From assembly GCA_031277215.1 (NCBI GenBank), contig JAITMR010000045.1, positions 1 through 64,000 on the forward strand: 64,000 nucleotides of DNA, written 5' to 3'. Positions 17,463-30,535 of the stretch are shown here, piece by piece. Below the pieces are notes generated by a model. It searched no databases and was not told where the DNA came from. It saw only the letters and a list, made by a program, of their open reading frames with translations. How positions within the stretch are numbered: position 1 is the stretch's first letter; each line of letters opens with the position of its first letter. This DNA comes from Burkholderiales bacterium (GTDB lineage: Bacteria > Pseudomonadota > Gammaproteobacteria > Burkholderiales > Casimicrobiaceae). The translations under genes were made by a program, and so were the position numbers.

Positions 17463-18881
17463 CTAATGTGGCGATGTTTTGATAATGTTTCTCAAAACGA
17501 AAGCCTTTTCCGCCTTCCCAATTTTTGCCTTTACCACATGCCCGCTTCCTGGCGCTACGGTGATGGCGTTGCCGTCGAGGTTCCACAGCGCTTCCAATTG
17601 CAGGCTGTGATTGCTTTCTGGCGTGATAATTTCCAGTGTGTCGCCAACTTCGAAACGGTTTTTGACGTCGAGGGTGGACAAACCGGTTTCGGGGTCGTGG
17701 CCGATCACTTCAGCAACGAATTGTTGGGTGAAGTTTGAAGAGGCGCCGTCAATGTAATTTTGCGCAGCGTCTGGCGCCGCGTTCAATGCATGGCGGTCAA
17801 AGAAGCCTTCGGTGTAGCCTCGGTTGGCGAGGCCGTCGAGTTGTTTTAAGAGGTCGGGATTGAATTCGCGTCCGGCCATTGCGTCGTCAATGGCGCGTTT
17901 GTAAATCTGCGCGGTGCGGGCGGCGTAGTAGTGCGATTTGGTGCGGCCTTCGATTTTAAGGCAGTTGACGCCGATGTCGATTAACCGCCGGACGTGGCGA
18001 ATGGCGCGAAGGTCGCGCGAATTCATCAGGTAGGTGCCGTGTTCGTCTTCGGAGATTTCCATCCATTCATCGCGTCGGCGTCCGGTTTCTTCGAGGAGCC
18101 AGGTTTGGTCGGCGGCGGTGTGACGGGATGAAAAACGCTCTCCCTCTCCCCCAACCCCTCTCCAACTCTCCTCCGCTTGCGTGGGAGAGGAGGGTGCAGC
18201 CTCTTGAAGAGGGTTTTCAAGAGGGACTGTTGGCAATAGCGTACCTTCAGCGGTTTCGGTTCCGGGAATGATCCGGTAGCGCCAGCGGCAGGCGTTGGTG
18301 CAAGTACCTTGGTTGGCATCGCGGTGGTTGAAGTAGCCGGAGAGCAAACAACGCCCCGAATAGGCGATGCACAATGCGCCGTGCACGAAAACTTCCAGCT
18401 CGATATCGGGGCATTGTTGGCGAATGTCGGCGATTTCGTCGAGCGACAGTTCGCGTGACAGGATGATGCGGGCGATGCCTTGTCGTTGCCAAAAGCGCAC
18501 GCTTGCGTAGTTGACGGTATTGGCTTGAACAGAGAGGTGGACCGGCATGTCGGGCCAACGTTCGCGCACCAGCATGATGAGTCCCGGGTCAGCCATGATC
18601 AAGGCGTCCGGCTTGAGCGCTACGACAGGCGTTAAATCGTCGAGGAAGGTTTCGACTTTGCGGTGGTGCGGCATGACGTTGACGGCCAGATAAAAGGCTT
18701 TGTTGGCGGTGTGCGCGGCGGCAATGCCTTCGGCGAGCGCAGCGGTGTTGCGGAATTCGTTGTTGCGAACGCGCAGGCTGTAACGCGGCAGTCCGGCATA
18801 GACGGCATCGGCGCCGTAAGCGATGGCGTAACGTAGGCTTTTCAGGGAGCCGGCGGGAGAGAGGAGTTCGGGGCGTTTCAT
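17463..18881 (-). CDS. U32 family peptidase / YegQ-TrhP-like tRNA hydroxylation protein
   Basis: RPELLSPAGSLKSLRYAIAYGADAVYAG, FVHGALCIAYSGRCLLSGYFNHRDANQGTCTNACRW, DEHGTYLMNSRDLRAI, LKIEGRTKS. Confidence 0.9.
   Translation of the reverse strand: MKRPELLSPAGSLKSLRYAIAYGADAVYAGLPRYSLRVRNNEFRNTAALAEGIAAAHTANKAFYLAVNVMPHHRKVETFLDDLTPVVALKPDALIMADPGLIMLVRERWPDMPVHLSVQANTVNYASVRFWQRQGIARIILSRELSLDEIADIRQQCPDIELEVFVHGALCIAYSGRCLLSGYFNHRDANQGTCTNACRWRYRIIPGTETAEGTLLPTVPLENPLQEAAPSSPTQAEESWRGVGGEGERFSSRHTAADQTWLLEETGRRRDEWMEISEDEHGTYLMNSRDLRAIRHVRRLIDIGVNCLKIEGRTKSHYYAARTAQIYKRAIDDAMAGREFNPDLLKQLDGLANRGYTEGFFDRHALNAAPDAAQNYIDGASSNFTQQFVAEVIGHDPETGLSTLDVKNRFEVGDTLEIITPESNHSLQLEALWNLDGNAITVAPGSGHVVKAKIGKAEKAFVLRNIIKTSPH
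18138..18197. repeat. In-frame copy of the dispersed CCCTCTCCCCCAACCCCTCTCC palindromic repeat inside the U32-family gene
   Basis: The 22-nt block CCCTCTCCCCCAACCCCTCTCC is the exact reverse complement of intergenic copies (e.g. GGAGAGGGGTTGGGGGAGAGGG near 23630 and 30342); the ORF stays open across it. Confidence 0.75.
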
Positions 18882-23569: not shown

Positions 23570-23660
23570 AGCCATTTTCACACGGAGGCGCGGAGAAAGG
23601 CACGATGCGCTCCCCTCGTCCGCTTGCGGGAGAGGGGTTGGGGGAGAGGGTAGTGGATTT
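23570..23660. repeat. Composite intergenic repeat (CACGGAGGCGCGGAGAAA + CGTCCGCTTGCGGGAGAGGGGTTGGGGGAGAGGG)
   Basis: Same modules as in 24.6-25.3 kb and 30.1-30.5 kb. Confidence 0.75.
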
Positions 23661-24516: not shown

Positions 24517-25807
24517 GGAAGCTCTGAACAATTCACGAAGCACCGTCATTCCTGCTAGAGGCCGCGGGAATGACGGAGTATGCATATCACCACAACCTTT
24601 GCACAAGAAGCTGCGGAGAAGGCCGGAGGGGCAGACCCCCGTGTCTGCCCTGGTGCGAATTCACGACTCCATTGAAAAAGGCACGGACAAGCACCCCTCG
24701 CCCGCTTGCGGGAGAGGGTGGTGGATTCACGCGAAGACGCGGAGAAAAATCATTTTCACGCGGAGACGCGGAGGCGCGGAGAAAGGCACGATGCATCGTC
24801 ATTCCCGCGTGTATTTGGCGGGAATCCAGCGTCTTTTGTTTTTCACGCGAAAGCGCGATGTGCGAATTTACGGCTTCATTGAAAAAGGCACAGTCAAGCT
24901 CCCCTCGCCCGCTTGCGGGAGAGGGGAGGGGGAGAGGGTGGTGGATTCACGCGAAGGCGCGGAGAAAGGCACGAAGTCGTCATTCCCGCGTGTTTCCCCG
25001 CCCAAAATCGCTGCGGGGACAAGCCTGGCGGGAATCCAGTGTCTTTTTTCCGCCCAATCACACAGCGATTTTGGGCAGGAGAGACAAACCCCCGTCCGCC
25101 TTCGGCGTCCCCCCTCCCCGATCAAAATCGTTTCGGGGACAAGCTCTTTGAAAAGGGGCTTCGGATGCGCGGAGAAAAATCATTTTCACGCGGAGACGCG
25201 GAGACGCGGAGAACGGCGCGAATGTGTCGTCATTCCCGCATGTTTCCCCGCCCAAAATCGCTGCGGAGACAAGCCTGGCGGGAATCCAGCGTCTTTTGTT
25301 TTTCACACGAAAGTGCGATGTGTGAATTCACGGCTACCGTAGAAAATGGCACGAAGTACCGTCATCCTGCGCGAAGTCGCAGGATTCACGCTGTCTGCTG
25401 GATTCTACGACTTCGCTGCGTTACGCGCAGAATGACACTAAGTCACGCAGGCAATGTGTCTTCTCAAAAAAGCAGGGGGGCTTCCTGTGGTCGCTCTGCT
25501 TCCATTGCCCTCACGATAAATGTGTTTGAAAGCCCCCTTTTGAAAGGGGGCTTCGATTTCATCGCGGTTTCTTGTGCAAAGGTGATATGCATACTCCGTC
25601 ATTCTGCGCGTAGCGCAGCGAAGTCGCAGAATCTAGAGACCGCTTGGATCCTGCGGCTTCACGCAGGATGACGGCGCTTCGTGACCTTTTTCAACGGAGC
25701 CATGAATTCACACATCGCGCCTTCGCGTGGAAAACAAAAGACGCTGGATTCCCGCTTGAAGCACGCGGGAATGACGAACAGTGGATGGGGAATTGTTCAG
25801 GGTGTCC
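24517..25807. repeat. Repeat cluster: nested composite repeats bounded by imperfect inverted repeats
   Basis: GGAAGCTCTGAACAATTC (24517-24534) versus GAATTGTTCAGGGTGTCC (25790-25807), 15/18 complementary; interior made of repeated CACGCGGAGACGCGGAGAAA, CCCTCGCCCGCTTGCGGGAGAGG, CATTCCCGCG...GCGGGAATCCAG and CCCCGCCCAAAATCGCTGCGGGG modules. Confidence 0.75.
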
Positions 25808-30109: not shown

Positions 30110-30535
30110 GCTCCCCTCGCCCGCTTGCGGGAGAGGGGCTGGGGGAGAGGGCGGTGGATTCACACGAAGGCGCGGAGAAAAATCATTTTCACGCGGAGGC
30201 GCGGAGAAAGGCACGAAACACCGTCATTCCCGCGTGCTTCTAGCGGGAATCCAGTATCTTTTGTTTTTCACACGAAGGCACGGTGTGTGAATTCACGACT
30301 CCATTGAAAAAGGCACAGTCAAGCTCCCCTCGCCCGCTTGCGGGAGAGGGGTTGGGGGAGAGGGCGGTGGATTAACGCGAAGGCGCGGAGAAAAATCATT
30401 TTCACGCGGAGACGCGGAGAAAGGCACGAAACACCGTCATTCCCGCGTGCCTCTGGCGGGAATCCAGTGTCTTTTGTTTTTCACACGAAGGCGCGGTGTG
30501 CGAATTCACGACTACCGTAGAAAATGGCACGGCGC
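30110..30535. repeat. Two tandem copies of a 213-bp composite repeat
   Basis: GCTCCCCTCGCCCGCTTGCGG at 30110 and 30323 (213-bp offset); the 60-aa ORFs at 30125 and 30338 are nearly identical. Confidence 0.85.

Follow-up and report, generated by a model that had tools for sequence, protein, structure and literature searches.

In-frame copies of triplex-motif-like repeats in trhP and other conserved genes of a Burkholderiales lineage

Described repeat systems and the family A element

Known precedents for repeats that lie in frame within protein-coding genes are the Rickettsia palindromic elements (RPEs), small dispersed elements that add peptide to the products of unrelated housekeeping genes (PMC10969869), and the REP-decorated proteins, in which repeats within genes cluster in frame and, in Thauera and R. 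conorii, reach lengths of 43-82 aa (Di Nocera et al., 2013; PMC3733652). REP-decorated proteins are biased towards DNA repair genes; RecB and TruB are among the targets, TruB is listed among the proteins of unrelated bacteria that REPs or RPEs decorate, and in two Xanthomonas the recB genes are decorated at nearly the same point (PMC3733652). A further described system is the intrastrand triplex motif (TM), of which E. coli MG1655 has 23 copies, all of them intergenic and reading, for instance, CCCTCTCCCTGTGGGAGAGGGCCGGGGTGAGGGC; whether TM is inserted or deleted was left open (Holder et al., 2015; PMC4666352).

The window analyzed here is a stretch of 64,000 nucleotides from a 1.9 Mb genome in 73 contigs (G000), which we compared with its congeners (the other G numbers below), all of them draft or metagenome-assembled genomes, and with the outgroups L010 and L011. 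Dispersed through the window is an element that we refer to as family A. Its 22-nt core occurs exactly at 18142-18163 on the minus strand, within trhP as initially read, at 23629-23650 on the plus strand, and at 30343-30364, and with one mismatch at 30130-30151; none of 100 dinucleotide shuffles contains any match. The genome of G000 has 31 copies of the core at up to two mismatches, and near-identical, dispersed family A copies number 31 in G000, 117 in G003, and 55 in G005. The consensus of the aligned copies, GCTCCCCTC(T/G)CCCGCTTGCGGGAGAGGGG(T/C)TGGGGGAGAGGG, is 42 nt (14 codons) long, is open in all six reading frames, and comprises a pyrimidine arm, a loop, a purine arm complementary to the first arm, and a third tract, again of purines, in mirror symmetry to the second. 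The initial annotation had described a palindromic repeat, and a hairpin is indeed present, but it forms only part of the architecture, as the purine mirror repeat follows it. A scan for the architecture recovered the copies in the window and returned none in mononucleotide shuffles. The core has a mirror symmetry of 9/10, and the many matches obtained in a control in which the pattern was read backwards are due to the mirror symmetry of family A. The plus-strand copies are intergenic by our own gene calls, as had been proposed, but a fifth copy, at 24901, had been missed (Table 1). Many intergenic copies in G000 adjoin longer shared repeats (GTGGATTCACGCGAAGGCGCGGAGAAA..., GTCATTCCCGCGTG...), for example at 30154-30463 of the window, and intergenic family A units may be larger composites.

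Judged by its sequence, family A matches the published TM rather than a REP of the GTAG/CGTC type. It shares with TM the order of pyrimidine arm, loop, purine arm, short loop, and mirror-symmetric purine third strand, of which the copy in trhP is a degenerate version, as well as near-identical letters (CCCTCTCCC...GGGAGAGGG...) and many dispersed copies in both orientations (PMC4666352). It differs from the E. coli TM in its longer third strand and GCTTGC-type loop, in the triplex being putative here, and in that copies lie in frame within genes for which sister species show the empty site. Family A falls outside the GTAG/CGTC REP superfamilies because its consensus has neither tag and hence lacks the unpaired terminal tetranucleotide, whereas a companion family, C (CGTCATTCCCGCGAAAGCGGGAATCC), begins with CGTC. 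Another companion, family B, is the CCCTCCCCTTCAAGGGGAGG family. With RPEs, family A shares the in-frame insertion into conserved, mutually unrelated genes whose reading frame is preserved, but its host is betaproteobacterial, its sequence is different, and it is 42 nt rather than about 150 bp long; it also uses several reading frames and encodes no conserved peptide (PMC10969869). The parallel with Rickettsia that was drawn initially is therefore apt for the way of working, but not for membership: the conserved RPE sequence and peptide and the Rickettsia host are absent, and we are dealing with a triplex-motif element that uses several frames and occurs in many other genes. By blastn, similar elements were found on plasmid records of Cupriavidus, Azospirillum, Vitreoscilla, and others.

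Table 1. Positions of trhP, its insert, and family A copies in the window
Feature	Position	Strand	Basis or remark
trhP (yegQ) CDS	17463..18881	minus	NF011996 profile match; dN/dS of flanks
Insert, lineage-specific, codons 218-252 (TVPLENPLQEAAPSSPTQAEESWRGVGGEGERFSS)	18126..18230	minus	Comparison with relatives; low pLDDT
Degenerate family A (triplex-motif-like) element in trhP	18142..18189	minus	Architecture scan and sequence
Exact 22-nt core GGAGAGGGGTTGGGGGAGAGGG	18142..18163	minus	Encodes part of W-R-G-V-G-G-E-G, residues 240-247
Possible decayed family B repeat (CCCTCTTCAAGAGG; residues NPLQEA), tentative	18198..18215	minus	Likeness to the CCCTCCCCTTCAAGGGGAGG family
Intergenic family A copy	23612..23650	plus	Core match, architecture scan, gene calls
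Intergenic family A copy, shortened second loop	24901..24937	plus	Architecture scan; absent from the initial annotation
Intergenic family A copy, core with one mismatch	30113..30151	plus	Core match, architecture scan, gene calls
Intergenic family A copy	30326..30364	plus	Core match, architecture scan, gene calls

The insert in trhP and its counterparts in related species

The trhP product is a prephenate-dependent tRNA uridine(34) hydroxylase of the U32 family with 472 aa. It matches the TrhP profile NF011996 at 697 bits, over the curated cut-off of 534, along its full length (profile positions 2-443 of 449). Like E. coli YegQ/TrhP, a member of the same enzyme family, it has the conserved cysteine and DEHGTY segments; unlike it, according to the family model and alignment, it carries an insert of repeat-derived sequence in the loop that connects the Fe-S cysteine and DEHGTY segments. 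The peptide quoted in the initial annotation is encoded by the minus-strand ORF, and the repeat-derived residues are there, but the non-ancestral stretch comprises 35 codons (residues 218-252), so that its span of 18126-18230 is slightly longer than the 18138-18197 first given. The suggestion that the position is variable was borne out, as the loop is 33-88 residues long in the 15 of 43 orthologues in which both flanking motifs could be located. The hairpin of the trhP copy is degenerate, with 10-nt arms that are 90% complementary. The tryptic peptides expected from the insert are IIPGTETAEGTLLPTVPLENPLQEAAPSSPTQAEESWR and GVGGEGER, and the insert peptides resemble low-complexity linkers.

In predicted structures, the model with the insert has strands at residues 202-209 and 215-217 and then at 261-265 and 269-276, and the insert-free model has them at 203-209, 215-217, 230-235, and 239-246. 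The insert is thus modelled as a strand-to-strand loop whose bordering strands are common to both models, in agreement with the initial proposal of a loop. Confidence is low there, with pLDDT <50 for residues 220-253; the cysteines likewise lie in a segment of low confidence, and the loop lies in the low-confidence part of both models. Searches of the PDB by sequence and by fold matched the C-terminal domain and parts of the barrel only. Since the solved relatives cover, by sequence, the C-terminal domain only, exposure was judged from the predicted models, according to which the loop would be at the surface.

In the congeners, the insertion point is flanked by ...TLLP on one side and (R)H-AAD...LLEE on the other. 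Only short ordinary linkers are found there in G002, G004, G008, and G009 and in both outgroups. A scan of the genomes of G004, G008, and G009 for families A, B, and C gave zero copies, and G002, a closer congener, has a few family A copies and 37 family C matches. The reading of the insert as repeat-derived would be undermined if relatives without the repeat carried the same residues; the repeat-free G004, G008, and G009 do not carry them, so the reading survives, and the G000 insert is lineage-specific.

All carriers of a trhP insert (G000, G003, G005, G007, and G010) are repeat-carrying genomes, and their inserts, all in frame, differ from one another in the repeat families they contain and in the order and number of the repeats. 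At the insertion point, G005 has an A and then a B element; G003 has an array of roughly 120 residues made of A, B, and C, with C nested in A-like sequence, in a protein of 562 aa; G007 has A-like and B sequence, on a contig that starts within trhP and shares an overlap with the end of a second contig; and G010 has a B element before the contig end. An intact family B repeat is present in the inserts of G003, G005, G007, and G010. Just downstream of the repeat-bearing trhP of G005 (L182:201-665) is a transposase-like ORF that by eye resembles IS5-type DDE transposases. On a tree built from the trhP flanks, G000, G003, G005, and G007 group together with G002 outside, with modest support. Because the carriers group together, five species do not amount to five independent insertions, and we rejected that count as unproven. 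It is possible that one old insertion was followed by turnover, or that there were several insertions; the inserts of G003, G005, and G007 may stem from one shared event.

In-frame repeats in other genes and alternative explanations

Genes were called, with a simple home-made codon model, in samples of 293 kb from G003 and 184 kb from G000. Inside called genes were 21 of the 28 family A copies in the G003 sample (14 of the 28 at least 40 codons from either end); the contigs were chosen for listed repeats, which leaves position in or out of genes unbiased but does not give a whole-genome count. The corresponding figure for G000 was 9/33, with 6 at least 40 codons inside. Outside the window the calls are home-made, and a caller that picks open frames favors in-frame cases. 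Family searches showed that, around the repeats, these are ordinary, conserved proteins: in G003, RecG, PriA, RsmB, GcvT, Mpl, TruB, a sugar epimerase, and a RecB/AddA-like helicase that has several repeat arrays; in G000, Mpl, PrmA, and a Mu-like portal protein. The G003 truB (L161:16746-17843) has in-frame A and D repeats between the C-terminal domains of TruB, and this fourth family, D (AACAAACCCCCGTCCGCCTTCGGCGGGCACCCCCTTTGAAAAGGGGGC), occurs together with A and B within the rsmB of G003 (L196:1036-2547) and within recG (L184). The in-frame arrays of Mpl in G000 (L143:2229-3884) and G003 (L162:10259-11815) are in about the same region, a candidate hot loop. Empty sites were read directly in sister-species orthologues of recG (two sites) and rsmB, and they show gain by insertion; at one of the two recG sites, the G010 array differs from that of G003. 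No split-gene neighbors were found among the annotated pairs flanking intergenic repeats, of which about eight candidates were informative.

Based on these comparisons, we consider it probable (about 0.85) that a triplex-motif-class element has inserted repeatedly in this lineage and that its coding copies survive in frame in tolerant loops. The alternative that comes nearest, which we nevertheless regard as improbable, is that the elements are adapted to coding sequence, as selfish or useful elements of the kind proposed for RPEs, with insertion into genes favored and the peptide selected. The high intragenic share in G003 would fit this idea, as would the targeting of one trhP loop in several species, the decoration of mpl near the same place in two of them, and the recurrence of helicase and RNA-modification genes (RecG, PriA, RecB/AddA-like, TruB, TrhP), also found in the published list (PMC3733652). 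However, family A occurs in G003 genes in both orientations and in five frame/orientation combinations, and therefore encodes no single selected or conserved peptide, as befits a unit that is open in six frames. Moreover, the inserts vary between species and look like linkers, and the intragenic share in G000 is below the coding density of 83%.

Less probable still is a role at the level of DNA or RNA, in which a triplex, hairpin, or G-rich mRNA would tune expression or stability and the peptide would be a by-product. The triplex-type architecture of family A is in keeping with such a role, and in vitro the published motif folds into a stable triplex, but the E. coli study saw no regulatory trend (PMC4666352), both orientations are found within genes, and the trhP copy folds as RNA only modestly better than shuffles (z -1.9, compared with -1.3 for the canonical unit).

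That trhP is decaying, with the repeat as a mark of pseudogenization, is hardly credible. The inserts do interrupt the family profile, and the genomes are 1.3-2.4 Mb in size, but a search of trhP in G000, G003, and G005 found no stop or frameshift, the TrhP score is far over the curated cut-off, and both flanks of the insert are under purifying selection. Before and after the insert, dN/dS of G000 trhP is ~0.05-0.18 against the congeners; the range is 0.05-0.21 among insert carriers and reaches 0.26 in comparisons with G002, values that are well below 1 and similar to those of the insert-free pair G002-G004 (0.04 and 0.14). The initial claim that the frame is open and both flanking parts are kept is thereby upheld. 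An assembly artifact, in which repeats joined unrelated reads, is equally hard to credit: the genomes are metagenome-assembled and repeats break contigs in G007 and G010, which end in or next to the insert, but G000, G003, and G005, each in its own assembly, show one gene in frame across the insert, and the G000 contig is 75.8 kb long with a stated contamination of 0.02.

Spread of the repeats and its meaning for the lineage

Under repeated insertion by a triplex-motif-class element, the hairpin-plus-mirror-repeat unit and at least three companion families would insert into the genomes of this lineage, and coding copies would persist only if they alter the net length by a multiple of three, introduce no stop, and lie in a tolerant loop; frame-breaking insertions would be purged, and in-frame ones would be near-neutral. 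With its stop-free 14-codon consensus, family A is unusually well suited to this. In the trhP loop, repeats would have been added or exchanged in different species. The TrhP of G000 is presumably made and active, and the peptide, which would have no function of its own, is probably a near-neutral filler, a disordered hydrophilic bulge around which the enzyme works.

We saw no target-site duplication or precise insertion boundary, and part of each insert may for that reason stem from later rearrangement. Candidates for the copying step are break repair driven by the repeats, template switching at these sequences, which can form structures, and a transposase that acts in trans. Genes for RAYTs (NF047646) are present in G002, G003, G007, G009, and G010, with only truncated matches above the cut-off in G000. 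A RAYT was considered as the obvious mobilizer, but none of the A, B, C, or D repeats was found near the four RAYT loci checked; a RAYT may still act in trans. Strong Y1_Tnp matches at L124, L173, and L181 proved to be IS200/IS605 transposases rather than RAYTs. The full-length RAYTs of G002 (C7:41745-42393, L180) and G010 (C79, L178) are flanked by GTAG-tagged palindromes (GTAGGTTGGG.TGAGC..GCGAA.CCCAAC) that are distinct from the families in trhP. A broader view, which we put forward tentatively and would not call probable, is that TM elements move actively in this genus, by a mobilizer other than a neighboring RAYT, and land in genes so frequently that many housekeeping proteins, such as DNA helicases and RNA modifiers, are being lengthened species by species at preferred loops.

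What is new here, beyond the known precedents, is that TM-class elements are shown as insertions and that one loop has been targeted or reworked repeatedly in a genus. Compared with the proteins of Di Nocera et al., the same loop is decorated in five species of one genus and the insert-free sister state is documented. The empty sites in conserved genes answer, for this lineage, the question of insertion or loss raised by the 2015 study of the very widespread TM, and coding copies, unlike intergenic ones, fix direction, boundaries, and timing. Peptides such as GRGVGGEG or PSPPTPLPQGERG in proteins call for caution in annotation, as they represent repeat DNA and not domains. The lineage offers a natural experiment, outside Rickettsia, on which loops tolerate large insertions, and its protein-coding genes keep a record of the jumps of the repeats.
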